A stretch of 64,000 nt of DNA from Diphasiastrum complanatum (lineage: Eukaryota; Streptophyta; Lycopodiopsida; Lycopodiales; Lycopodiaceae). A program made the translations under genes and the position numbers. The notes beneath the pieces are model-generated. The model ran no database searches. It was not told the origin of the DNA and saw only the letters and a list, made by a program, of their open reading frames with translations. Location: NCBI GenBank assembly GCA_029204225.1, contig CM055106.1, positions 18,362,149 through 18,426,148 on the forward strand, given 5' to 3'. Positions 6,069 through 48,883 of this stretch are shown here, one piece after another. How positions within the stretch are numbered: position 1 is the first letter of the stretch; the number at the start of each line of letters is the position of its first letter.

Positions 6069-9108
<3,040 letters not shown>

Positions 9109-14669: not shown

Positions 14670-15430
<761 letters not shown>

Positions 15431-18324: not shown

Positions 18325-19290
18325 CCTTGGAACACTATCTGACTTTGTGTCCCTTGCCCATACACACAAAGCACAAACGTTCTTGTTTGGCTTTGTCAAA
18401 GTCTTATGGTTTTAAGGGCTGTATGAGTGAAGGGTGTTTCTGAGGAGCTTCACCTTTAAATTTATCTTCTTTCTTTCTTTTTAAAAATTTCTTTGTAAAT
18501 TGAAAGTCTTTCTGAGGAGGCTGCTCAAAAAGGGGCTGTTGTCTCACCCTCTTCCTACCCACTGAATCATCATAGATTTGAGCATATCTGAGAGCTTGCT
18601 CAAGGGTAGTAGGCAAGTTTTTTTCGACCTCTACTTTATATTCATCTTTGAGGCCTCGGACAAACCCTCTGATTTTCTGATAATCATCCATATTTTCTTT
18701 AAAATTGCTTCTCGGTATTGCGAGATATATTAGATTAGGAACTTGTCCACTACTGTTCTTTCCCAGGTTCTATCAAGTTCATTTTCTGGTAAGAATTCTC
18801 TTAGAAAAACTTCTTCAAAAGCTTTCCATGACCGGGGAGTCTGCCCAGTCTTCTGGAGATTTAACCACCACTTATAGGCCATGGGCCCTAAGGAAAGACT
18901 GGCCTCAATTTCTTGCAAATGGTCAGGGGTCTGTTTAAGAGCATGAATGTTCTTCCATTTGTTGAGGAAGGTTTGTAGAATATTTGCATTTCTATCATTC
19001 TCTTCTCCAATAAAAGTTGGAGGCATTAAATCCTTAAAGACACCGGGGTGAGACCGCAAATTCTCACCCAAAACTAATGGAAGTGGAGAAGGGGACAACT
19101 GAGAAGTGGAGGGAAGGCTTCCTTTCTCGGAACTCAAAGTCAAGCCTTTGAGTTCAGCGAACGAGTCGTCCACACTGGACTTGAAATTGGCTAATGCCAA
19201 CTTCAGCTCATCCACTTCTGTTACCAAGTGGAGAAACTTGTTAGAAAGTGTCAAGGCTATAGCCCTTGCACAACACTCTTGGAAAACAAA
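18325..19290 (-). pseudogene. Gypsy Gag remnant with zinc knuckle
   Basis: Two Gag pieces, 18730-19290 and 18404-18691, separated by a frame break. The first includes the capsid-like block WWLNLQKTGQTPRSW and FEEVFLREFLPE; the second continues with KIRGFVRGLKDEYK. At 18325-18400 a CCHC knuckle, CFVCMGKGHKVR plus C, is interrupted by one stop codon. The 5' end is cut at about 19290, where a tRNA-like sequence starts, so leader, PBS and 5' LTR are missing. Confidence 0.85.
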
Positions 19291-19291
19291 T

Positions 19292-19362
19292 GGATGGGTA
19301 GCTCAGTGATAGAGCACCCCACCGGAATGGGGAGGTCCTAGGTTCAATCCCTAGCCCGACCA
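19292..19362 (+). ncRNA. tRNA-like sequence (SINE head or tRNA pseudogene)
   Basis: 71 nt fold as a cloverleaf. The D arm is GCTC/GAGC, the T arm is CTAGG-TTCAATC-CCTAG, and the acceptor strand CCCGACC pairs with GGATGGG except for one A-A mismatch and a wobble. The anticodon stem (CCCCA/TGGGG) leaves only a 6-nt loop, so it is unlikely to be a working tRNA. It abuts the broken end of a Gypsy gag, which suggests a tRNA-derived insertion. No clear target duplication was seen. Confidence 0.55.
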
Positions 19363-22560: not shown

Positions 22561-24479
22561 TGAATTAGTTGACATATACGTCTATCCAATCGACATTGGT
22601 GACACTTATTATGATCTTGAATCAAATCAAATAAAAACTCAATATATTCATTTCACTATTTTAAGCCAATTTTCATAAAAGAATAATCAATATTAATTGG
22701 ATTAGAAGAAACTAGAACAATTTCAAAAAAAATTATGTCTGATGACTTTTTTTTCGTTATTAGCTAAAAAGTAGCAAAAATTGACTTCAACTTTTGATAC
22801 ACAATTTCACCACCCTTCAGTACTAAATCAACATGATCTTTGGCATGTCCAACATGCAGTCATCTCTTTATAAATTTCTTGTTTACATAATCAATCATTC
22901 TTTAGGATAAATTGTAGTGATTATGGTTATATTATAAAAAGCATTTAGACAAAGATTCACATTGCTCAAACTATTGTAATTCATTGTTGCATTTCTCTGA
23001 AACATTTAGATTGATGCAAATTTATCATTATTCAACCAAGAAAAAGTAGCATGTCGCTTGCTTTCCAACATGCAATAAAAACATCATTGAAAATTTGCAA
23101 ATTTTGCTCCAAAAATTGCCAAACTTCTCACGATCATAACTTTTGCTATAGAGCACCAAATCAATTGTCATAAGGCATGATACAAAGGGAGGTTTGCAAA
23201 ATATTGTCTCACATTTCTCTATCCAAACAAAATTTTCTTTGTCTTTTAATAGATTGTCAAGGGACAATAATATAGGACTAAGGTTACTCAAATAAGCTTC
23301 TATAATAATTATGTCTCTTTCATGGTCTTAAGAGGCCCGATTTTTTGCATCGATGACATTTGTTTTGGCACCACTTGACGTGATGACATTTGTTTTGAGA
23401 TTTTCACCTAACAAAGAGTAACATTTTTTGGTATTTTTTAGATTACCTATTTCTAGACCAAAATCATGGTTTTGTTTTAGTTAATGTCTAAATTATACCG
23501 AAAAAAAAGCTATAAAAAAATACATATTTTTAATAGATCCTTATACAAAAATGTAAAGACATCCCCCTCTTCCTTGTAAGTTAGGGAGGACTTGAAAAAA
23601 ATGCAAGAATGCAATGAAGCAACCCCCCACATGTGAGAGAGAGAGAGAGAAGGAGAAAAAAAAATGCATTAATTTTTTAATCTTTGTGATCTACAATGAA
23701 ACAACACATAGATAAGAGCAACATAAATGGGAACATTGACGATCAATTCAAAAGACAAAAGATTGCAAAACCTTCTATATTTTCTAATATTAGCATAATT
23801 TTTAGAGTAAAGCTACAACTATAGAGAAGAAAGTTGCAATAATTGTGTTGCACAATTAAAACATCAACAACCAAGCACAATTGGATCCCACCTATAGTTG
23901 AGATGCATAAAAGCTTATGTAGGCCCACGAATAGGAAAAGAATAGAATTTATATAGCTGGAAAGTGAACTACATGCTAGATGTCAAAGGACTAAAATTGA
24001 GTCTAGAAAGAAGAAAGTAAAACTTAGAGAGTTGCTATTGGTCCACAATATCTAGTAGATAAGTTTGTAATTCTTTTCAATATGCATAGTTCTAGAACCT
24101 TTCAAATTCTAAGATATACCCATTCACCAGCCTTGAAATCTTTAAGAGATCTTTTAAGAATCACATAGTGCTTAGCCCTATCTTGTGCACTACAGATACT
24201 AGCATGAGCTAAAACATTTGTTGCTTCCTACACATGAAATTTGCAAATTTCTTAACACTAAAATGCACACAAAAGTGTGCATTTCAAGCACTTATTTAAA
24301 TAATCATATCTCATAAACTATGATAAATCACAATAAATCCTTTCACATGAGTGTTCTTCGTATATACATTTACTGATTAAAAATTTTGAGACCTTCATTT
24401 TGAGCAACTTATATGTAAAATATGATGTGTCGAATATGTGCGGATATTGATGAAACTTCGATTTTCATATATGAAATTA
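22561..24479. other. No gene seen (AT-rich)
   Basis: AT-rich DNA with a short GA run at 23635-23652 and no recognisable gene. Short minus-strand frames at 23028-23291 and 23743-23928 look random. Confidence 0.5.
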
Positions 24480-25022
24480 TATTGTTCTGAATTTTACATT
24501 CAATCTTTAGCATGTCTACTCTTAGAAATTCTGTATGATTATAGAAACATGCCTATTAAATAAAAATTGAATTTGGAGATCTATAGAGATAGATACGTGC
24601 AGTCAAAGTTACCCTTTTAAGTGTTGATAAAAATCACCAAAAATGGAAATATCATATATGAGTGTATAGTACCATGATTTTAACAATACTTTTTTTGGTT
24701 TGTCTACTTTAAAAAGTGTTATATGACCATAGAAACATGTCTCTCAAATTTTTCTCAATTTGGAGTTATGTAGAGATATATATGTGCATCTAAAGTTACC
24801 CATGTCAAGTGCTGAAAAGTATTGAAAATTATTGATAGATGCTAGAAACTTTCAATTCTTTTGAAGGTTTTTTTACAACCCTTTCTTTGGCAATCCACTT
24901 AGAAAAATCTTTACGACCATAGAAACATATCTATAAATTTTTTTAAAATTTGGAGTCCTATAGAGATATATACGTGCACCTAAAGTTACCCATGTGAAGT
25001 GCTGAAAAGTGTTGAAAATTTA
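24480..25022. repeat. Tandem repeat of about 188 bp, three diverged copies
   Basis: A marker block, TAGAGATATATACGTGCA plus CTAAAGTTACCC, recurs at 24584, 24771 and 24961 (spacing 187 and 190). It is preceded in each copy by a block of the type GACCATAGAAACATGTCT. Copies differ by substitutions and small indels. This is a small satellite-like array. Confidence 0.75.
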
Positions 25023-25145
25023 AGTTTTATGGGGGCAAATTGCCATCAATTGAGAGAGAGAAAAATTTAAGTCTTCCAATAATACAATGAAGTGTCAAGT
25101 CTAGTTCCACATACAATTGAAAGATTAAAATTTCGATCATTTGCT

Positions 25146-25880
25146 GGCATGTTATGTCTCGTCAAGTGACCAACGGTTTTATGCACACTTTTGTCTTCTA
25201 TTTTGAATGATAGACTTCATCTCCACTACAACAAGAGATCTAGATTGGAAATCATACCTAAATATGAATAGATAATGACATATTGCAAAATGTTTTCTAC
25301 CATCAGAAGCCAACTTTATCAAAGGAAGGTAATCTTCCCAATGAGATTGCTTGTGAAAATATGTCAACATATTTTCCATAGCATGAATATTTTTGTCAAT
25401 CTATGGATCCATCTAACTCAAGATGATCATTAAATAGAAAAGTTTTGAGTTTATGGATAATTGCAAATCAAAAGTCACCTATGAACTTCAAATCTCTATC
25501 ACTAATGATATTTCTTGACAGTTCATACAACCTAGATAATCTTTCAACAAAAATCTGGCTAAGTCCAAAGCCTTTGTAGATGACTTACTTAGTTAGTCTA
25601 TCCACTAGCACCCAAATAGAATCAATCTACCATAGAATTTTAGGAAGTCCAACTAAAAATTCCATAGATAAGCTCTCTCATTAATTAACATGGTCTACAA
25701 TTCCTCACAGTAACTCAAGAAATGGTTTTAGTCTTGTCAAATGAAACTCCTTTCTAACCAAGTCTAAAGCCCTATGTATACATGGATGATTTTCATAGGG
25801 TTATCATGACATTCAAATAAAAGTTGTTTTTTTAAAGCATCATTCCCTAGTACATAGATTTTTCTATTTCAAAATAATAA
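25146..25880 (-). pseudogene. Degraded Gypsy integrase remnant
   Basis: Minus-strand frames give STKALDLARFLLKDYLG, then MENMLTYFHKQSHWEDYLP and LIKLA. These match the core and C-terminal part of Gypsy integrase (the usual forms end with a TERVNQ block and KWEDYLPLVEFAYN). Catalytic Asp and Glu are not recognisable. Frames are broken throughout. Confidence 0.6.
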
Positions 25881-28480
25881 TTTAGAATGAAATATTATTT
25901 TACAATTTTCTTATCATTCTTAGATAGTTCAGGTAGTTTGTATCTGCATTGCTTGTGAGTGGAATCTAAGTTCAAAATTCAAGGTCATTGTCTTCAATTC
26001 AAAATTTGAGTAAAGCGCAATCATCACATGCTCAATAGATTGTAAAGGTGAGTGCTAATAATGTATGATTGACAATTACAAATGTAGAACCATTTATTGA
26101 AGTGTGGTCTTGCATGGATGGTCATTGGTAAATGAAGCAACATGAACAAAATAATAAACCGTCCTATTTCTTAAACATTATCCTGTACCTACAACATGCA
26201 AGCATAATAAGCATGTGTTGAGTTAGTTCTAATGTGGGTAAACAAATTGAATGATTATGCTAGTAGGTTGAGCACATAAGGGCCTTGACTACATACTTTG
26301 AATGTACAACTATGTAATTATTTTTGTAATATCCAATGTCAAGCTAGAAACATATTCATGCTTGAGTAGGTAGTACTGCATGTCTTATATGCTCACTATC
26401 TTCTTAATGGCTATAAGAAGTTTCAAAATGTTTTTTTTAGCTTTGACTTGTCTCCAAACTTTCCTTGACTAGTTGAACATTTGATGGTGCCTGTTCAAGA
26501 CAAAAATACATCCATAATCCATCCATGCTCCCTCTATTTACATGCTCTACAAAGTTCAAAGATATTTTTATTAGTCTTTTCAAGAAATTGTGTTAGTAGG
26601 ATTAGGAAATGGGAATGAACTTGGCCAATCCTTTATTGATGCGCATATGAAAAGCCTCCATCTCTAGAGCACTATTTATCGATCTAGGCATGGAATTGGC
26701 TTCCATTTGTTTTCAATTAAAATAAAGAGCTTATGAATCAATCCATCCAAGCCTCTACAATATTGTAAACAAGAAAATATTGGAGAGATTTCTCAACATT
26801 CCCAAAACTTAGAGATTTGTTAAGGGGAGCTTTATAGAGACAGATTTGTGAAAATAATTGAAGTCCAAAGAATCTCTTGGCACAATAGTAACTAGAAATT
26901 GGAAATGATGAGCAAGACCTTGAACCATTTGTTAAGGTCTAAAACCTTTTAACCATCAATTAGTAGGATACAAGAGTCTCAAACATTATACCTTTTCAGC
27001 TTGCATTTCATGAAAAAGAGGGAGGAAAGATGTTTTTTTTAGTCAATTCAAAAAACTGTGTTTCATAAGACCCAAAATTTCATAAATTTCACTCTTTATA
27101 AAGTGATAATTACAAAGAATTTATGAATCACTATATAATTTAGGGTTTTCATAAATACGTTTTTTTATAAATCACTATACTTTTTTTTCATAAATCACTA
27201 TACTTTTTTTTTGCTTTCTTGAGAATTTTCCTTTTAACATCAACTTGATCTTCCAAGAAGCTTCCATTTGTATTTACAACATTGAGAACATTTGAGAGGC
27301 AAAAACAAGTGAGCTATTCATATTGTCAATGATGTGTCTCTTTTGGTGAAGAACATGTTTGAAGCAACACATGTATATTACTCGTTTTAGTTACACCAAT
27401 TGGATGTAACTTGTTGCTACTTATTACCAAGATGACACACCAAGCCATTATTTGTTCACACCCAAATGGAATTGGACTATCGCTCAATAATTCTTGAAAG
27501 AATCTATATATCCTTACCTTGTAGCATGGAACCGTTCTAAGAAATTCAAAATTCACAATTCACAATTTTAGTTCTCTTTCAAACTATAGTCCAATAGAAT
27601 TGCATCCAAGGCCATTTGCTAGCTTGATTCCTTGGCTTGACATACATGTTGTGTCATAGCTCGCATATAAGTGACCCATGTGCTTAATAATTGCAATTCT
27701 AACTATGCCCATAATGCTAAATTAGAATAGAATTAGTCAATATGGGAGTTAATATGATGGCTGAACAACCACTCTATAATTACAAGTAGCGAGACTTGTA
27801 ATAATCTTCATAAGGCCCAATTTAGCCAAGGACCCAAACTCATATTAGAGGCACAAAATACCACTATAAATAGCTAAGGTCGTGCTACATTTGGAGGCTA
27901 ATGAATCTACATTTGTCAAATTTGAACTTCCTATATATTTTTGGAGCTCCTCTTTGAGAGCTTTCTTGGTGTTCTTGGTTCATATGCCTACCATCACATG
28001 AGAGCTTGATCATGCTCTAGCTTAAGGCTTGATGTATTGAATGATCACTATTGATAAAGAATCTTATTCTACTTTGTCTAATTTGGTGAAGGTTTTTTTT
28101 AATTTGTCTAGTTTTTTTATTTCTTGCTACTTTTTTAATTTTTTGCTTTCACCATTCTAATTTGTTTACATCCATGTCCAATACCAAGGATTTGGAATAA
28201 TCCTTAACGTGGGTATTTGGATTTCTAGTATTTGAGTCTGTCAACTGTGCCTTGATATTCCAGTCAAGGCCAGTTATGTAACTAATAACCTTGAGAGATC
28301 CCAGGCACTCCAACATTGACGTGTGGAGCAATGCACAGTCTTTGATGGCTTCGTGCATGCTAAGCAGTATCAATAGTAACTTCATATAAATTTATCCATA
28401 TATTAGAGTTCTAGATGGAATATTTCCAAGCATCTGGAGACTATAAATACCTATAGAAAGTAGGGTTTTCATATTGACGT
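25881..28480. other. No gene seen
   Basis: AT-rich sequence without recognisable coding content. The stretch 27100-27220 repeats the block TAAATCACTATACTTTTTTT a few times. A minus-strand frame at 28149-28385 (78 aa) has no motif I recognise. Confidence 0.5.
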
Positions 28481-28931
28481 AATTACTCTTTTCTTTTAAC
28501 GAAAATAACTATAATGTTGATATGATTACGTGAAAAATCATAATAACGTTAACAAAAAATGACTTGTTGCTGGCATGTAGACCGGGTGGTTTGGTGGAAT
28601 AGCCCGCTGGGCTTACCAAAGAAGCACACCGGGCCCCTATAAAATGCCCGCTGGGACTGCTGGGTGCCCTCTAACATAGCCCGACGAGTATTTTCACTAT
28701 AACAAAAGGCTATATCCCGCCATGTTCCTCACATTTCAACTTTCTAATCCTCTTGTTGTCTAATATTTTGCTTCCTAATCTTCTTGCTTGCGATTTATTT
28801 GCACACGATAGTAATCCACAATAGTTAAATTTTATATTTTGTACTTTTAATTTAGATAACGATCTTTAATTATACAATATTCTAGAAGTTTTGATCTAGA
28901 GTAGTTATTTTTCATGTTTGTGGTTATTTTA

Positions 28932-29370
28932 GATTCATTTTTTGGTGCACGACTATTCACTTGGCTACGTGCTATTGATGAATTTTCAATAATCATTTGT
29001 GTGCCTGATAATTATTGATTCATCTTTGGTGCACGACTGTTCACTTGGCTAGGTGCTATTGATGAATCTATAACTATCATGGTTGTTTGTTGCATGATTA
29101 GTTTCCAGTTTGTGGTTATTCTGGATTCATTTTTGGTGCGCGGCTATTCACTTGGCTAGGTGCTATTGATGAATTTTCAATAACCATTTGTGTACCTGAT
29201 AATTATTGATTCATCTTTGGTGCATGGTTATTCACTTGGCTAGGTGCTATTGATGAATTTATAACTACCATGGTTGTTTGTTGCATGATTAGTCTCAAGT
29301 TTGTAATTATTTTAGATTCATTTTTGGTGCGCGACTATTCACTTGACTAGGAGCTATTGATGAATTTTTA
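28932..29370. repeat. Alternating 84/107-bp tandem array (left part)
   Basis: The block GATTCAT, CTTTGGTGC, TATTCACTTGGCTAGGTGC recurs at 28932, 29017, 29124, 29208 and 29315, giving spacings of 85, 107, 84 and 107. Two unit types alternate: A ends in a TTTTCAATAA segment, B in a CTATAACTATCATGG segment. The last A unit is cut at 29370 by the inverted-repeat element and resumes at 36085. Confidence 0.9.
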
Positions 29371-29401
29371 CATTAGAGAAACTTAGAGCCCGACGAGGGC
29401 C
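29371..29401 (+). repeat. Left terminal inverted repeat
   Basis: Starts CATTAGAGAAACTTAGAGCC and continues CGACGAGGGCC. It matches the reverse complement of 36054-36084 at 25 of 31 positions, with the first 11 bases identical. Confidence 0.85.
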
Positions 29402-29813
29402 TTTGAAAAAGATGTTTTTTTATTTATTTTTTCTTATTTTTGTTGCCATGTGAACCAATTGAAACCTTAGCTTCAGGGTTCTACGTAACGTAGAATTTTT
29501 CAAATATAGATAAAATAAAAACTTCTTAAATATATTGTTGTTTCGTCGGGCAGCATGTGGAATGCTATTGGTTGATGAGGCCTGCCCTTCCAGCTGTCCG
29601 AAGAGACCCAAAAATATTGAAAATGAATATGATAGATGGTTGAGATGAGAAAATCGATGTACCATTAATGTATATGCATTGTCAAACCATGGTTAACAAG
29701 GATAACCAGAGTTAATTTGTGGCGCCAAATAGATCAGTGTTTCAAATTTTTGCCAACACTTTTTCTCAGATTCATGGCCTTTTGTCGACGCAAATTTTCA
29801 GATTCACAGTTCA

Positions 29814-31422
29814 TTGTTTCAGATTTTTGCATGCAAATTACGAATGGTGCCATCAAGGAAGCCGTGCTCCTCAATCGACTCTGTGCTTCTATTCAACGAG
29901 ACAGATGATAATGGATTATGGGTTGACATTAATCAGTTATTAACATTCATCATAAATTTTTACGGTATTAATGTCGATAACAAGTTGATAGTTGTTCTCA
30001 AGTTAGATGAATCTGAAATTACAAAAGGACAAAAAATGGAAAGAGTCAGTCTCACGATCATGAATGGAGCACTTTCAAATTCAAATGACTCAAAAGGCTT
30101 CAATTTCAATGTTCAATCAAAAAATGATATTTGGTGGTTGGCAGCATTTCAAGTATAGCAGTTCCTTTGCATAATAAATAGGGATAATCATTTGAATATG
30201 GATTTCATATCTAAAATCTTCTCTGTGTTAATATTATGAGGATAATCACGTATTTGTATTTTCTTATAGGTGCTGAAAGAAGACCATAACATTCTCTCAT
30301 GGATATTTAATAGAGCATCATATCCTGCCACCATAAAAAATCACATGGAGGGAGTTCCACTCAATATTCCTGGAATTGTCACTTTCAACATTGAATGGCA
30401 TTTAGCAGGAGATCTGAAAACATTAAAATGTATGTTCAATGTATCTCATGGCACTAACTCTAAACACCCTTGTTTGTACTGTATGAAAATAGCAAAAGAC
30501 ATGACAAGGAGTACAGGAATATCAAGAGATCGAGAAGATCCTAATTGGAAACCTGTACTACCGATTCCTCTACGAAATGTTCATATCTATACATTGCATG
30601 CGGAGGTGCGTATTATAGAAAAAATAATATATCTTCACATCTTGTTTGCATGGAATTCCGAGCCAGAGGCCTCTACAAAGGAAGCTATTTCCAAATTAGA
30701 GGATTTGTTGTCCAAAGTAGGCTTACATAAAGGCCACGCTAAAATAAAAAAAGATGACAAGTTATCAAGTAAAACAGAAAATATTCCATGCAAGCCGAGC
30801 ATTGGAGGATCTAAAGCTCGAAGATTTTTATCAAATTATTCTGGCAAACAATCTAAGGTTCAATACACGGTTTGGAAAGAAATTATTGCAGCAACTCAAG
30901 ATTTCAAAGAAGAAGGTTCTACTCGTATACACAAAGTAGAAGTTTGGAAAAAGTTAGACAACATGATGAAATACTTGAAAAAAGATAAATTTTCAAATAC
31001 TGATGTTCAAATGATACAGAAAACAACCAATAAATTTGTGGATGCAGTTCAGAGTGCATAGGGTGTTGGTCATATAACACATTATATGGTAAGATTTTGA
31101 TTTTACACTACGATAGACAAATATGTGCAATAAAATTAGATACTTTTGTTACTAATTTAGATTATGTTTTTATGACATGCAGCACATATTACGACATCAT
31201 TCGACAATCTTTGCAAGAAATAGTGGAAGTCTTAGCATATGGTCATCGCAAGGAATGAAAAAATATCATTGGCAAGCAAGAGCGACATTTTATAAAAGTA
31301 CACAACATGGCGGGAGTAGCACAAAAAACAGCTATATACTGCAACTTTTCCAATGGTTTTACAGAAGAATCCAAATTCGTCATAATACAAAATCGACGGA
31401 TTATAGAAAATTTCAAAATTAG
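29814..31422 (+). pseudogene. Transposase-like gene of the TIR element (three exons)
   Basis: Exons about 29814-30152, 30270-31088 and 31183-31422 have GT-AG borders and keep phase. Motifs in order: VLKLDES (possible first catalytic Asp), then EWHLAGDLKTLKCMF with a possible second Asp, HPCLYCMK (C-x2-C), a long spacer, THYM, and WSSQGMKKYHWQAR followed by STQHGG. This order resembles RNase H-fold transposases that carry a GD-K, C-x2-C and QG-EK series. Here the Glu position of QGMEK would be Lys. One in-frame TAG lies at 31059-31061. Family assignment is inference. Confidence 0.6.
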
Positions 31423-31713
31423 ACATTTTAAACAAAAATAATAGAACTGAAGTTTCAAATATCGCTCTCAAACGCAAACCCCAGTTTAGACAAGCACGTC
31501 AAGGCAACGTGCGCTCGAGAGAGATATTGGAAGCTGTGCAATATTGCTTTCGAGCGCGCATCTCTTTTCTGCAAATAATCTCTGTAGGTCTTGCACTCAA
31601 AACCGATATTCAGTGTTGGTATCGATCTCAAGCGTCATTTCATCCAATTTTTTTTGTTTTGATCCACTTTTGTTTTGTTCAAACTTCTTTTTGTTGATTT
31701 TCTTCTTCCGAGA

Positions 31714-33609
31714 ATGATGGCCAGGACCAAATCCACCACCCGTGCCATCACCATTGTATAGCCATCCCATTCTCGTGTTCCCCTTGGTACTGGTCGTAGG
31801 CGTGGCAGGAAGCAGGTCTAGCTGAGGGAGATCAGAAAACTCTAGAGATCAACTGAATTGTTGATCCCTAGAGCTCCTTTCAGCCGATTTGTACAGAATG
31901 TCACTCTGTCACTTGGGCTGGATGTTCGTTTTGTCGTGACAGCCATGGAGCCCTTGCAAGGTGCTGCAAAAGATTTTTTGTCCCAGTTTTTTGAGGATAC
32001 TTGTCTTTTGGCAGTGCATGGTAAGCGTGTCACCATCATGCCAAAGGATTTCATCATTCTCAAAAGGCTTCGGGACAGATATTCTGGTCTGCATGTTGAT
32101 AATGCTAGCACCTCCAGAGACCTGCCTCTAGATAGAACCAACGTGCCTACTACCTCTAGGAGGAAGAGAAAACAGGTTGTTCCCAAGAAGGCTGGATCTC
32201 AAAGGCCAGCTGCTTCCCTTCCTCCTAGACGTATCCCGGCCAAGAGACCCCGTGTCTTCCTGAGCTCTGAGTCAGATGTTGGAGAATCTAACTCAGATCG
32301 AAAATTTTCACCCAGTCCTCCTCTTGTTATTCGTCCAGCTCCTCTGCAGGTTTCATCACCAAAAGTGTTGATTACCCAAGAGGAGCTAGACAGAATAACA
32401 GAGAAATCTGTAAATATTCTTTCCACTTCTGTTTTTGCTTCTGTACATAATGTTTTTGTGAGAATTCCATACGATCCAGTCCAGGTTTTATTTTATTCTG
32501 ACCATTATAATCAATACGAGGCCTACCTAGCAGACAAAATTGATCTTCTCGGCAATTTTTTGATTCTTTTCTTCCAGATACACGTAGAAGCTTTAGATTA
32601 GGTCCCAAATTTTGTGTCGAGCTAAAAGATAAGACCTCAGAAATTTTAGATGCAATAGTAGAGGCTGGAGTTTCTTTTTTGCAGAATAGTATTAGTTTCG
32701 ATTCCCATGGTACAGTTTTTGTAGTTAGTCCATTTTTCATGGGAGCGGTAAAGGCGAAAAAAGCCAATTTTGAGAAGGCTGTCTATTTTATCGAGTGCAG
32801 TCTTATGGCAAAATTTTATTTGATTCCATATGAAAATAAGTAAGGATTGCTCTTTTCTTTTTGTTGCTTTAATCTGGATTGTTGCATGCCTCATTGCTTT
32901 AATAAAAACGGAATTTTTTCATAAATATGAATTTAATGATATTTGTATCTTGGTTGTTGCAGTTGGCATTGGGGCCTAAACATTCTTTTTGTAAACATAA
33001 ATAAAGAGGGAGTATCAAATTTTCTATGTGTAAAATTAAACTCAGCTGCAAATACACATAGAGAATTTGATTCTCTACTTCATGATGTCGTTTGGAAAAT
33101 ACCGACAACAGCAACTTCAATTGGAGATATAACTCTCTCAAGGTATATTCAATTTATCTCTGATATGCATGTATTTTTTTTATTTCAAATGTATCGTCAT
33201 AACATAAATAAAATTTCTATCATAATATTACTAATTTTCGTTCTATATATGCAGTGTGTACAACAAAATGACGTTTTTAGTTGTGCATGGTTCGTCCTGT
33301 ACAATACAAAGCTATTTTTTGAATGGTATAATTTACAAACGGATGTAGATATTGAAAAGGTAATATTCTATTTATTTGTAGTTCATTTCATTCTAATTCA
33401 TATTTTATTACTATCATTGTTTGTAATTTGCTGATTCTCGTGTTTTGTGATGACAGTTCACTCTTGAGCCGTATGCTCCTGATGATGTATATAGATTTCG
33501 GCAAGAGTTGATCAGAACCTTTGCCCACTACGGTGTAAGCATTGCACCTGCAATCGAGGGCCCTCAAAAAGAAGCTGCTCTTGCCTTAACAGCCTTTCAG
33601 GTTGTTTAA
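31714..33609 (+). pseudogene. Histone H3-fold protein joined to an Ulp1/C48-type cysteine protease domain
   Basis: Exon 1 (31714-32839) opens with ARTKST, like the H3 tail, then REIRKL, STELLIPRAPFSRFVQ, LDVRF, FFEDT and KRVTIMPKDF. The H3 histone fold aligns to canonical H3 without gaps in loop 1; the LLIP and KDF forms recall CENH3. A basic tail (SRRKRK, PAKRPR) follows, then a domain with FVVSPFFMG, LIPYEN, HWGLNILFVNI (catalytic His position), QQND (Gln) and FSCAWFV (Cys), typical of Ulp1 peptidases. Further exons are 32963-33142, 33255-33359 and 33457-33609. Damage: three in-frame TAG codons before the histone fold, one base missing in a T run near 32556, and a phase mismatch between exons 2 and 3. 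Confidence 0.7.
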
Positions 33610-34149
33610 GATGCAGATCTTATTTTATATGATAAAAAAAGAATGAAAGTCCTTCCTAATACAGAGGAAGACAATTTTGTAGCAAATATTCCTCTTGTTT
33701 TAAAGTCATTGAGGCTCTTCTCGAAATAGAGGAGGGCAAGATTATAGATGGAGCTGTTGCTTTATCAGCTCCTAACACTGATATAGAAAATATAGAAAAA
33801 ATGATTGAATAGAGATCTATTTGTAAATAGAGAGACATAAAAAAAAAAAGATACAATCATTTTACTTGTAAACAACCCGTTTATGGGTTTTTTTTTATTG
33901 ATATCACAATAGATCCTTACAATCAGCTTGTGTCCATAGTCTAATAATGGAATGCAATTTTTCTATAATGATAAAAAGATATTGGCATGTATTTGTTGAT
34001 AGTGAATCTCAATGTTCTTCCATAAGTTGGATTGTTTCGCCAATATCTCTGTATTTGATCTCGAGCTCATGTCTTTTATGTACTTGCATAAAATAATACA
34101 AAGATAGTTAGAATTAGTACAGAGTTTGTATTAGAAAGTTTTGATTGAA

Positions 34150-35719
34150 GCTATTCATAAAGGATCGAGTATTTACAGTTACTTACAAGTTTACCATTGA
34201 AAATGAATCTGAAGTCTGAAAGTACATCATCTTGTAGGAGCAATAGTTCCCGCCGGATGTAATTTAGACTCCAATCTTCTTCCACCTCAACACATGTCAA
34301 AACGGCATCATTGTATATAATATTTTTTTCGTTTTGAATGTCCACTGGCTTCCAAGTCGTGATCAAGTGGCACCCATTTATCTTTATTTTTTTTCCATCT
34401 TTGATAATGGAAGCATAAGCTCAACATTTGTTTTTCAATTTAATAACGGAAGCACATGGAAGACATTTTAATTCTGTATTCTATTTCTCCATCTGATCTT
34501 TTGTCCCATCCTTCATCCATAAGTTCAGATAATAAACTATCTGATAATTTTTTGCATACAAACATCGTTGGGGTTTTGTGTACATTGACACTTGAAAAGA
34601 AATCCACAAATATATTCAAGAAAATAAACCAACTCAATCTGACTGTTTTTTATCTTGTGCTCATTTTTAATGAATTTTTTACATCATTATATATCTTGCA
34701 ACGAAATGATTCTGAAACTGTAGCATCTGGTGCAATCCATTCATCACTTTCAAAGCTAGGTAATGGAATTGGTACTATTTGTCCAAAATTTTCTTTTGTA
34801 TCAGGAATGTACATTGATTCATAAAAAAAAATTCCACCATCAGCTAGATCTTTTGCAGTTCTACCTTGATATTGCAGCTGTCCAATATCAGTGTGAATAA
34901 CATCTAACACACTTGCTAAAGATCCACTCGGCTCCCATTCATTTATGTTGGGTGGATATAAATCTGCAAGAGAAAAAAGATCAGATTGGCAAGTTTACTA
35001 TTAGATATTTATGAATAACAAAAATCAAAGTATCAAAAGTATCAATACTCACAGTTGCTTTTTTTGTGATCCTGACGGTTGAATCCTTGCACATTTATCT
35101 CTGAATGCATATATACATGTTGGACTAGAATTTTAGAAATCGATTTTCCTCCTGATGATGTTCTGAAATCCAAAATTCTGGCCTTCCAATAAGATCGAAA
35201 TGATAGTTTTGAACTTTTCCTTTTTCGTAATGAGATACGCATGGATTGAAATGCAATTTTTATCTCATCGTTACTAGTTGTATAATGATGCAAAGAAGAT
35301 TTCAACCTTTGGATCTTCTCCTTGAGCATCTCATTTTCATCCAAACAAGTTTTCATCTTTGTAGATTTTTCTTCGCACTCCTTTGATATTTTCCTTGATT
35401 CCTCTTCCAAATAATGTATTATTTGCATTGAATGTGCATTCCCATAGAGCATCAAATTCTCATAGTAACCCAAAAGGCCATTTTTACCATGACACATATA
35501 GATGATTAACTGACTCACCGAATGAAAATCTGGGTGCTGCAATGAACATGGATCAATAGGATACAATGTTCCTGATGACCATAAATCTACATGTTTTAGC
35601 TTTTCCTCCCTATATGGGACCATATCAGAAGTTGATAGTTTGAGTTGCTTTGAATTTCTCGTCCTGAGCGGAGCATATTCTGGTGACAGATCCACATGAA
35701 GATGATAAAGCTTTGTCAT
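34150..35719 (-). pseudogene. Coiled-coil gene of the TIR element, unknown function
   Basis: Exon 1 (35053-35719, 222 codons) starts MTKLYHLHVDLSPEY and has a coiled-coil segment around residues 108-145 (EEESRKISKECEEKSTKMK and following). A good splice to 34963 keeps phase and continues with NINEWEPSGSL, DGGIFFYESMYIPDTKENF and PLPSFESDEW. Later pieces at 34440-34637 and 34151-34366 (VEVEEDWSLNYIRREL) are in shifted frames with a stop. It begins about 365 bp inside the right terminus and points towards the H3-protease gene. I do not recognise the family. Confidence 0.5.
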
Positions 35720-36053
35720 CAGTACAGTAGTATAGTAACAAACAACACAATGACAATAACAAAGCTGGAGATGGCGCTAACGACTCTGCTGGCGATAGAG
35801 ATGGCGTAGGTTTTTTTTCGAAATGTTACTCCTAATTCAAATTTTTGAGTGTTCTTAAGTATTGGGAGGGAATATTTCAGCATTTTGAAAAATTATATTT
35901 TAACTGTGGTTAAACACCAGTAAAGTTTGATGTGAACTAAGGTGCATTCATTTACATGAAAAGTAGTGCGGGCAGATGCGTAAAGAATTTAGATAATGAT
36001 ATTATAATTACTTTAAAGTTATTTTTCTCTCTCCTACATGGCATTTCTTATAG

Positions 36054-36084
36054 GGCCCTCTTTGGGCCCATATTTTCTCTAATG
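36054..36084 (-). repeat. Right terminal inverted repeat
   Basis: Ends TATTTTCTCTAATG; its reverse complement begins CATTAGAGAAAATATGGGCC. Beyond it the tandem-array unit resumes at 36085 with ATAATCC. Confidence 0.85.
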
Positions 36085-36200
36085 ATAATCCTTTGTGTAC
36101 CTGATAATTATTGATTCATCTTTGGTGCACGACTATTCACTTGGCTAGGTGCTAATGATGAATCTATAACTATCATGATTGTCTATTGCGTGCTTATTAT
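36085..36200. repeat. Tandem array, right part
   Basis: Completes the interrupted A unit (36085-36112) and contains one B unit starting at 36113 before the array fades into single-copy-looking sequence. Confidence 0.85.
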
Positions 36201-37177
36201 TTAAGAATTGTGTGCATTCTATGTCTATGTTCGTGAAGAATTTTAAAATTGTATAAACATTTCAATTTTCACATTTTTAGTATATGGTTTTCTTCCTGTA
36301 TGTGATACATTAGATTTCAATTTTGTATTTCATATTTCAATTACAGCACATGCTTACAATTTGATATTTCTAGCATTATTAGTAACTCGTTAACTTAATT
36401 ATGATTCATGAAGTGAGATTTATTATGAGGCTGGATTTGTAAATTGTTATTCTTAACATCTAGTACAAAAGATTTTTTATTAGATGTTATTTGCTATTTT
36501 AACAGTTGTATCAAATGAAATTTGTTATTGTAAATTTAATTTTTTAGCACTAGTAACTCGTTAAATGTTTTCGCTAACAACACTGAGTTAATTGTTTGTA
36601 ATGAGGCTCGTGTGAGAGCACTTATAAACAAAATAGTTCAAGCGACATGTTAAGAATACAACGCCAATGAAGAGAAAGTTACGGAAAATATTTGTAGTTT
36701 TATTGGAGATGTTAGCAAGTGTCTTCAGGATCTGGGAGATGAAGCTCCCTTGGGGATAGATAAAACTAAATTAGAATCTTGGGACAAGTTGTTGTGCATA
36801 GTATTGGTCATACACGACGACCTCCTTTGGTCTCTTCTTCTCGTACTTCAATGGAGGTAGCCTGGACGATTTGATGATGAAGCTACCATTCAATAATGGC
36901 TCGTTTAGAAGAGCCATGGCAAAGTTGCAGGGAATGGTAAGGTGATAGGTCCTCAACCAGACCCTATTATATCATCAAATGAGATGGTCAAAATCAAATC
37001 GATTTGTGACCATGTTTGTGGCATCTCACATGCCTTGGTGCAAACCATGGCATTTGTGCATAATGAAATCTTGTTGCATTGCGATTTGCATGCAGCTAAT
37101 GTCATGATCGATTTCAACAACCAGTTGCATACCAGGATTGGTGTCATCGATTGGAGAATGGCAGTAAGGGTTCTGTA

Positions 37178-38437
37178 GCGCAGGCATCCCAAAGGGAGCC
37201 GGGAACCACGACTTAGCTTCCCAGCCTTCAACTCTTGCCATCCAAACCCACTTGACATACAAGCAGCCAACTCGCCAACAACGATTAGAATTAACCAACT
37301 TGAAGTTCCGAAAACCAACATTGAGATCCAACCTGGCGCCATGCCAGATCGGGGGTCCCGACGTGGGTGACTTCCCTCCAAGCAAGCCGCCCGACATACA
37401 TCAAACTTAACCAACTCGAAGCTTCGTTACAAATGAGTAACATCCATTCCAAGCAAGCGGTCTGACTTACATCAGACTTAACCAACTGAAAGCTTCGTCA
37501 CGAGCGCTGGAAGCCAACCTGGCGCCACGCCAGACTGGACAGCCATAAACAGGTAACATCCACCCAAGCAAGCCATCCAACTCAGCCGACAGGTTAGAGC
37601 CCGTTCCCCAAGAGCTTAATCCATTCACGTTCATGCAAGGAATACTCAGAACCACAAGCCGCGACAGATATGGAAACAACCAGTTCCTGGACCAAATGGT
37701 CCCGACAACATACCGCTGGCGCCACGGACCGAATGGTCCCGACGGCATACCGCTGGCGTCCCGGGATACGACCCTCAGCTATGTGCCAAGTTAAAAATTT
37801 TGAAAGCGGCCTTACAACTGGCGCTTTTACCGAACACTGAAACCCAGAAGGTAATCAGAGTCAGTTTGAGGAAAATCCCACTTTATTGATAAATTTGAGA
37901 AGGTTACATTTCAAGTGTGTGACCGACCCTAGTCTCCGGGGCGCTAGCATGCCAAGGCGAGAGCCATGACAACATTCCAGCAAGGGAGGCTGAGACTTGG
38001 TTGGAGCTCGCCCTGAGTCGCAACCCGCACTCCCCTATAGTATTGGTGTGATTCGGCACCCCCCCCTCATACCAAGCACTCTACCCAAGCTGGTAAAGCA
38101 CGTTTTTCTCTCTCTAGGATTTTCTCTTTCTAGAAAGTCATTTTCTCTCTCTAGATTTTATTGATCCCCAGGTTTCCTTTAATCATGCCTAGATCGTGTG
38201 AGGTGATTGCACATCGATCTGAGCTCTCTGGACTTCGCTAGAACCGATCAAAGATTTTCAGCCATAGGAACTTGGCGCCGGCTGGATTCTGGTCACAGTG
38301 GCGCCGAGAGCGGCGCCGGCGCCGTTGGCGCCAGGAGCAGCAGGGGCGCTGCTGGCGCCGGGGACATAGCTGGCGCCGATGGCGCCGGAAGTAAAGCTTG
38401 TAAAGGTAGCTTTACAATAGGTTCAATACGAATCAAA
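37178..38437. mobile_element. GC-rich insertion in the kinase gene, probably an LTR-type fragment
   Basis: This block interrupts the kinase reading and differs in composition from its surroundings. It has no coding motif. It holds internal repeats: AACCAACTNGAAGCTTCG-like blocks at about 37273, 37408 and 37480; ACCTGGCGCCA at 37330 and 37511; CCAAGCAAGC at 37378, 37451 and 37563; and a 37-bp doublet with TGGTCCCGAC at about 37705 and 37733. A cluster of GGCGCC follows at 38265-38385. Flanks share only GTTC, so a target duplication is doubtful. Confidence 0.45.
38265..38385. repeat. GGCGCC-rich cluster
   Basis: About eight GGCGCC hexamers lie in 120 bp. The first (CTTGGCGCCGGCTGG) resembles the TGGCGCC-type primer-binding sites of some plant LTR elements. 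The plus-strand frame across it is Gly/Ala-rich and looks like a by-product of the repeat. Confidence 0.6.
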
Positions 38438-38720
38438 AAGTTCCTAGGTGGCCAATCAGACAACCCATGCGCTTAGGTTGTGGTTAGCTCATGAGTTGCT
38501 AGATCGCAACCATGTGTACACCAAAGCTACAGACACATGGTCAGTGGCATGGTTGATCACTGAGCTTATCACATTTTGTGAGAAGTTTTGTGCGTTGCAC
38601 CATCTTGGCTGGAAGCAGAGCCTTGCAGGAGCCAATGTAGAGCATATCAAATATATTGTTGCAAAAGAATATTATATTGTTGACGAGCATGCAAAAAAAA
38701 AATGTAGAAGATTTAGATAA

Positions 38721-39062
38721 TAATCTTGAGAGATTAACTTGCATCCAGAACAATATCTTCGGCCAATGGTCGTAATGATGCCTACATTTTATATATTTTG
38801 AATCTGGAGATACTACGTACAAAGAACAAAAAACGAATATAAGCTATATATCATGTTGTATTTTCAAGCAACGTGATTGCAAACTTATTTTTTTATAAGC
38901 TTATTTTGTGATATGTTTGAAATTTAGGAGGAGTTATGGGATTATGTGATATTAAATCAATGTGGAATTATGTGATATTTTAAAAACTAGAAGTTACATC
39001 ATAAATTTGTGCATTACTTGCAAGTTGCAACATATGAGAGTTTTAAACTTTGTAGCCTTGTA
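38721..39062. other. No gene seen
   Basis: AT-rich spacer between the kinase remnant and the next open frames; nothing recognised. Confidence 0.5.
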
Positions 39063-39068
39063 GGTGAT

Positions 39069-39600
39069 ATGGCCTCTGAAGGAAGTAGCGGCTCCCCGGA
39101 TAAAGAGCGACAAAAAAGGGCATACGAGCGATTGAAAGCCATAGCTGAAGGAACTGATATCAATGAGATGGCTAGAATTGGTGCTCGTACATCTGAGTGA
39201 GCCAATCCTGGTGGTGTGCAATGGAAACAGATAAATGACATTGTCTCTATGGAGATGGTCCTCGAAACCTGGCCGACTCCCAGGTCAGATGTCAAAAAGG
39301 ACATTTCAAACTTGGAAACTATGAGAACAAAGATATCAGAAACAAGGTCGAAAAGATGTATTTGGCATGCACAACACAACATTTACACCATCAAGATTGC
39401 AGCCTTAGCTTTGCTAAAATGATGTACATGCATTACGTTCTCGAGAGTCCTGTTAATTTTAGTTCAAACCTCGCTAAGCAAGTGGTGTCCAACCTTCGAA
39501 GCGAGAGTGTTTTTGTTACTCGAATAGAGTTACGGGATGCTCTCGTTGGTGCATCATGTCAGGTGCATGTCCAAATAGAGGAGCTGTAGTCTCTGCTCCA
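39069..39600 (+). pseudogene. Unrecognised broken coding sequence
   Basis: One frame reads MASEGSSGSPDKERQKRAYE (39069-39200) and, after a stop, QWKQINDIVSMEMVLETWP and ISETRSKRCIWHAQHN (39216-39422). Another frame carries SPVNFSSNLAKQVVSNLRSE and LVGASCQVHVQIEEL to about 39589. The pieces have protein-like composition but stops and a frameshift between them. I do not recognise the family. It may form the upstream exons of the RING-type ORF that follows, or belong to a transposon. Confidence 0.35.
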
Positions 39601-39737
39601 TAGTCAAGAGAGCGCGTTCAACCGCGTAAAAGAGCAATTATATAAATCATAAATGTTGGTAGAATATAAATCATGCGCTTAAGCTGACAAGATCTTTTGT
39701 TTTTCAGGGCACACGATGATGATGACGACGACGATAT

Positions 39738-40073
39738 GTGGCATTGCATCATCAGTTGGAAAATCTTGAAGGGCCAGGTGGTGGTAGCCATATATCTCGC
39801 AGGATGGTGCATCCTAATGTTCTAGAGCGTATAATAGATGACCCACTCCAAGATTGTTGTCCACTTTGCCACCACAATTTTCATTCATGGAGTGGGCATT
39901 ACCAATTACCATGCATGCATATTTATCACATTGCTTGTCTCATCCAACGTATGATGTTAGATGATAAGTGCAAGTTATGTGATTATAAAATTGTAGAAAA
40001 TTTATATATCACATTAGACATGCATGATAATTATCGTAGAATCCAAGAGATGCGTGCCTTTAGAACTCTATAG
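39738..40073 (+). CDS. RING-type zinc finger protein (111 aa ORF)
   Basis: The ORF contains CCPLCHHNF, then LPCMHIYHIAC about 13 residues later and KCKLC. These give the C-x2-C, C-x-H-x2-H-x2-C, C-x2-C spacing of a RING-H2-like finger, the usual E2-binding fold of E3 ubiquitin ligases. A splice acceptor (TTTTCAG) at about 39707 precedes it, so upstream exons are likely and the Met start at 39738 may be internal. Codons are intact through the stop. Neighbours are transposon debris, so expression is uncertain. Confidence 0.5.
   Translation: MALHHQLENLEGPGGGSHISRRMVHPNVLERIIDDPLQDCCPLCHHNFHSWSGHYQLPCMHIYHIACLIQRMMLDDKCKLCDYKIVENLYITLDMHDNYRRIQEMRAFRTL

Positions 40074-47215: not shown

Positions 47216-48883
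<1,668 letters not shown>

Follow-up and report, generated by a model that had tools for sequence, protein, structure and literature searches.

The locus described here, within a window of 64,000 nucleotides of Diphasiastrum complanatum DNA, raises the question of whether a plant transposon may have acquired a histone H3 of its own, joined it to a protease-like domain, and used the product to act on host chromatin. Transposons are silenced via H3 marks and SUMO, and it would, to our knowledge, be rare for a mobile element of eukaryotes to encode a core histone. In a limited literature search, none of the 20 titles listed with the beginnings of their abstracts, out of 1,361 papers, concerned a transposon combining H3 with a protease, from which we do not claim that the subject is absent from print.

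A histone H3 fold was indeed clearly recognised in the second gene of the element (gene 2, forward strand). Positions 31846-32076 encode 77 residues that align with H3.2 without any gap, 36 of them identical and 50 positive. When the whole 251-codon open stretch (31846-32598) was compared with the PDB, the best match was H3.2 (E 7.8e-16, residues 1-77, no gap), and among the 60 matches listed, out of 180, all were H3, H3-like or, in one row, a histone-domain protein. The initial annotation had deduced an ungapped H3 fold from the succession of STELLI, LDVRF, FFEDT and KRVTIMPKD, and had suggested a histone profile search; in line with this, the Pfam family PF00125 (Histone) matched the fold significantly (E 4.4e-17, 62.9 bits for a cut-off of 26.4). 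This match strengthened to E 7e-23 once the upstream piece was added, with X at the stops, and the top PDB match then became H3.1 (chain 8kcb_F, which we take to be a plant H3; E 1.8e-21). All these motifs, with LREIRK ahead of them, occur in order and in one frame after M-MARTK. Such comparisons strongly support the assignment of 31846-32076 to a true H3 fold.

The region upstream of the fold (31714-31845), with the gene start and a shortened basic H3-like tail carrying LREIRKL, is less well preserved. The bases ATG ATG GCC AGG ACC AAA at 31714 encode M-MARTK, in the same frame as the fold, as expected from the ARTK start that had been proposed. The frame leading from the ATG to the fold is nevertheless closed by TAG at 31759, 31819 and 31843 (the next in-frame stop being at 32599), and no convincing alignment with H3 was obtained between MARTK and LREIRK. 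The tail is also 13 residues short, as STELLI starts at residue 44 and not at residue 57, its position in canonical H3. The three stops are all TAG, as would fit the decay of a methylated plant transposon by deamination of its cytosines.

Conservation is uneven within the domain itself, the best-preserved parts being the core of the fold and the loop-2 block KRVTIMPKD. Residues R69, R83, H113, K115, R116, T118, K122 and D123, which we take to be core or DNA-contact residues of H3, are all kept, and R63, R72, K79, E94 and E97, presumably residues used on the H3 surface, are altered with respect to H3.2. Because of these surface changes, it is uncertain whether the gene 2 product could assemble into nucleosomes. 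For the H3 part and linker, the model that AlphaFold built with no alignment was too poor to be used (pLDDT 39.5).

The origin of this domain was addressed by a subfamily comparison that started at LREIRK and ran through the last residue of the fold. The highest score was obtained with the H3.1 chain 8kcb_F (203; 43 identical residues in 85 columns, no gap), followed by human CENP-A, the letters of which were checked against a PDB chain (172; 38 identical out of 87), and by Arabidopsis CENH3, the letters of which are unconfirmed (155; 37 identical out of 87); in both of these alignments, loop 1 required a gap of two residues. Like CENP-A/CENH3, the gene 2 domain is an H3 variant with a divergent tail, and the Pro after LLI and the KDF motif are also found in these letters of Arabidopsis CENH3. 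A CENH3 origin, suggested by LLIP and KDF, was ruled out by the lower scores and by the absence of the loop-1 insertion. The best score to H3 and the absence of a loop-1 gap therefore indicate a domain derived from H3 and not from centromeric H3. With canonical H3 (H3.1/H3.2/H3.3), it shares the MARTK start, LREIRK, the ungapped fold, FEDT and KRVTIMPKD; it differs from it by the limited identity of the fold, the shorter tail, a long C-terminal extension and its location inside a transposon.

As H3 is nearly invariant in eukaryotes, an identity of 47% within the fold points to an old capture. We compared the fold with the outcome of a neutral simulation, in which H3.2 was mutated to the same identity in 500 runs; the simulation, without indels or codon bias, is a rough one. 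These runs required about 93 substitutions on average and accumulated 2.0 stops on average, and 62 of the 500 were stop-free, while the real fold contains 0 stops and 0 indels. The observed BLOSUM score was reached in 7 of the 500 runs; the observed number of positives was reached in 53, which counts against constraint. Taken against the neutral runs, the stop-free and gap-free fold favours a long period of constraint followed by later decay. From the sequence, we thus favour a scenario in which H3 was captured long ago, its fold was held under constraint, and this copy decayed afterwards.

That gene 2 lies inside a transposon, as the initial annotation had stated, is supported by the ends of the element. 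It extends from 29371 to 36084 (6.7 kb) and is bounded by 40-bp terminal inverted repeats, the left one at 29371-29410 (+), beginning with CATTAGAGAAA, and the right one, with which it pairs, at 36045-36084 (-). The two arms match at 30 of 40 positions, including all of the outer 11, and form the longest pair among the 25 listed of the 123 inverted-repeat pairs in 24000-40000; the next best opposite-strand match to the left arm in the whole window reaches 23/40. The element is flanked by a tandem array of units of about 191 bp, and the outer ends of the repeats coincide with the points where this array is interrupted. When the left and right flanks are put together, they match two copies of the array throughout the junction; one of these alignments has a single-base gap some 50 bases from the junction, within the left flank. 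No target-site duplication was seen at this junction, where no base is repeated or missing with respect to the two array copies; such an absence is unusual for transposons with terminal inverted repeats.

Downstream of the fold, the frame of gene 2 continues without interruption into a linker (32077-32556), containing basic clusters (SRRKRKQVVPKK and KRPRV) and a Ser/acidic stretch, with 160 open codons up to a T run. Judged by eye, these basic clusters may suit nuclear import or DNA binding. Over 31846-32556, the coding frame contains 0 stops; the two other frames of the same strand have 10 and 16, and those of the opposite strand have 11, 5 and 16. In all, the frame is open for 174 codons past the fold (160 before the T run), and of 5000 order-1 random sequences with a similar base composition, 1 stayed open for that length. 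A frame change then occurs in the T run near 32557, and the -1 frame is stop-free for 281 bases. This agrees with the basic tail in the H3 frame and the subsequent base loss in a T run that had been described.

The remainder of exon 1 (32559-32839), in the -1 frame, forms the upstream part of the protease-like region. It is followed by exon 2 (32963-33170), exon 3 (33255-33359, containing QQNDVFSCAWFV) and exon 4 (33457-33609), which ends with an in-frame TAA at 33607-33609. The three introns (32840-32962, 33171-33254 and 33360-33456) all have GT-AG borders, join the exons in frame and are AT-rich (71, 81 and 75%, respectively, vs. 54-69% in the exons). Intron 2 (84 bases) is itself open in frame, so that an open frame could be kept even if it were not spliced out. 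An earlier model of this intron, with exon 2 ending at 33142 or 33143, kept the frame only via a non-GT-AG join and was replaced by 33171-33254. Past the TAA of exon 4, a coherent frame runs over 33610-33812, with a further frame change in a T run; the live protein was thus probably longer. The claim that H3 is joined to a protease is therefore sustained as regards gene structure, with a single strand, open frames, three in-frame GT-AG introns and no stop from the fold to the linker, and weakened by the fact that it relies on one broken copy with a low C48 score. With three TAG stops and one frameshift, this copy is dead, and the fusion could consequently be an accident of this copy. We infer the fusion between H3 and the protease-like region from the gene structure that this one broken copy displays.

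The C-terminal region was compared with C48 (Ulp1/SENP) peptidases, to which the initial annotation had assigned it. HWGLN is encoded at 32967-32981 and FSCAWFV at 33276-33296. In the corrected model, the candidate catalytic His (codon 32967) and the candidate catalytic Cys (codon 33282) are separated by 77 residues, and a Gln lies six residues before the Cys. In Ulp1, the spacing between Gln and Cys is the same, and about 66 residues separate His from Cys. At what appears to be the Asp site, assigned by eye, the residue is Asn. Peptidase_C48 was the sole Pfam family found on this region in five spliced versions, collinear with positions ~88-196 of the 217-position profile, with scores of 11.3-14 bits for a cut-off of 20.7 (E-values of 0.13, 0.045 and 0.2 for the first splice model and of 0.12 and 0.31 for the corrected GT-AG model). 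The score was lower for the corrected model (12.6 bits) than for the first (14 bits). Among the unspliced pieces scanned with Pfam, 32940-33431 matched no family and 32544-32840 matched only SIMPL (E 0.24). An NCBIfam scan detected no C48 family, and PDB searches returned no C48 structure, one match being an unrelated aminopeptidase (E 0.039). Of 10 control sequences (nine shuffles and one reversal of the 168-residue first model), none matched C48 and two matched unrelated families (E 0.066 and 0.13). Since the controls matched other families at similar E-values, the C48 score alone proves nothing and would be at noise level unless the family were expected beforehand. This was the case here, as C48 had been named from the motifs (the His of HWGLN, the Cys of SCAWFV and the Gln), which lifts the argument for it. 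The earlier assignment is thus suggested by the two motifs and the collinear match, and qualified by scores that all lie under the Pfam cut-off and by the absence of C48 from the NCBIfam and PDB results. We consider that the C-terminal domain is probably C48-like (Ulp1/SENP), and not a proven member of the family.

Gene 2 is accompanied by two other broken genes. Gene 1 (29844-31422, +) comprises three exons (29844-30152, 30270-31088 and 31183-31422) separated by GT-AG introns in frame, with one TAG in exon 2. It showed no Pfam family above the cut-off and no meaningful PDB match, and a piece of it matched nothing among plasmids. Its position, and an apparent resemblance to known transposases, lead us to guess that it may encode the transposase. 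No transposase family, including the MuDR family profile, was detected on the scanned open reading frames of the element, in the broken genes of which a very diverged one could be missed. Gene 3 lies on the opposite strand (34020-35719, -), with a coiled-coil-like first exon (35719-35053), a GT-AG intron, a second exon from 34963 and open pieces down to about 34020. It too gave no family above the cut-off in Pfam. The join used for its last intron in that scan was not GT-AG; several GT-AG joins can be drawn, e.g., with a donor at 34182 and an exon from 34082. The C-terminal piece (34020-34420, -) reads DWSLNYIRRELL...FRFIFNGKL and then HKRHE...GETIQLMEEH, and looks by eye like a ubiquitin-like fold; a version of it with another join had no Pfam match. 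If true, it would be striking for a single element to carry a ubiquitin-like protein next to an Ulp1-like protease.

The window looks like plant DNA with many copia and gypsy retroelements: the 10 open reading frames scanned outside the element gave matches to the Pfam families RVT_1, Retrotran_gag_2 and Pol_BBD. Long TC/CT microsatellites (98-100% match) were seen at 7867-8098, 14742-14842, 15253-15399 and 47633-47708, the first and the last inside mechanically called open reading frames. A tRNA match (19292-19362, Rfam RF00005, 51.3 bits) lies at the edge of a minus-strand open reading frame (18730-19302) that looks gypsy-gag-like by eye. Pattern searches for related loci gave 3 and 2 matches in viral contigs and 72 and 6 in prokaryote genomes, none of which was confirmed; as the viral, prokaryote and plasmid collections hold no plants, these negative results say little.

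Some of these features are shared with known transposons. KI/Kaonashi MULEs are plant transposons with Ulp1-like domains, and MULEs make 9-bp duplications. The present element resembles them in being a DNA transposon and in having a C-terminal domain that is probably C48-like, and differs from them in the H3 domain joined in front, the 40-bp terminal inverted repeats and the absence of a visible target-site duplication. DNA transposons of the Spy type, which are said to insert without target-site duplications, have in common with it the terminal inverted repeats and the absence of a duplication, read here at one insertion site, but their gene content differs.

The explanation that we prefer, and to which we give slightly less than an even chance when fusion and chromatin role are taken jointly, is that a DNA transposon with terminal inverted repeats captured H3 and joined it to what is probably an Ulp1-like protease, with chromatin as its place of action. 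From a mechanistic point of view, the lineage of this decayed element of about 6.7 kb would have taken up a complete histone H3 gene long ago. The fold would have been kept under constraint and tied, via the basic linker, to a cysteine-protease-like domain, probably of C48 type. By pairing with H4 or binding H3 chaperones, the H3 part may bring the protease-like part to nucleosomes, mainly in newly replicated chromatin or transposon chromatin, where it may strip silencing factors of SUMO or of a similar modifier. The element would thereby stay expressed, or its target stay open. In a live element, the fusion, the protease activity, the pairing with H4, the target and the benefit are all putative. 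A stronger form of this idea appears rather unlikely: it supposes a selfish histone, i.e., an H3 variant evolved by the transposon lineage itself in covalent linkage with a SUMO/ubiquitin-like type of protease, so that nucleosomes containing this H3 would deliver to chromatin an enzyme that removes silencing.

Next after the favoured H3-protease reading come two explanations, both of which we regard as unlikely. The ARTK-tailed H3 domain may act outside nucleosomes as a decoy, titrating readers, writers or chaperones of H3 (e.g., proteins recognising its N-terminus) away from silencing; the C-terminal domain would then either process or free the H3 part, or have no activity. The exact conservation of MARTK ahead of an otherwise short and H3-unlike tail is in line with this, as are the altered residues of the nucleosome surface and the Asn at the apparent Asp site, but the core of the fold and KRVTIMPKD are the best-kept parts, beyond what a tail decoy would need. 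Alternatively, a fragment of a host H3 gene may have been picked up without any function for the transposon, the joined frame being due to chance or to a past fusion of host genes. Plant transposons often carry gene fragments, and the copy is decayed; however, a passenger acquired recently should still match H3 almost perfectly, far from the 36/77 observed, and an old neutral one would be expected to show gaps and stops in the fold, where so few neutral runs scored as well. The frame that remains open past the fold also speaks against a passenger.

Two further explanations concern the T run. The locus may consist of two adjacent genes, i.e., an H3 variant that terminates at 32599, shortly past the T run, and a protease-like gene of its own starting within exon 1. 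The frames indeed differ at the T run, and H3 with its linker would stop there; but the two frames overlap only over 32544-32601, no ATG lies close to the beginning of the second, and no spacer separates them. This arrangement seems improbable. A programmed -1 frameshift would instead yield H3-linker alone and, at a lower level, H3-linker-protease, in the manner of Gag/Gag-Pro. At the T run, a T TTT TTG heptamer stands in register, as the heptamer rule requires, and it is precisely in the -1 frame that the C-terminal part continues from there. Against this, the next 100 bases form no stable RNA structure (z-score +1.78, with 196 of 200 shuffles folding at least as well), and, given the three stops upstream, a decay lesion is simpler than a programmed event; frameshifting of this kind seems very improbable.

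If intact relatives share the fusion of H3 with the protease-like domain, this would mean that H3, the protein on which silencing acts, has been made by a transposon into an instrument for its own use. The entry of an element-encoded H3 into chromatin, once tested, would directly probe the conflict between host and transposon at the nucleosome.
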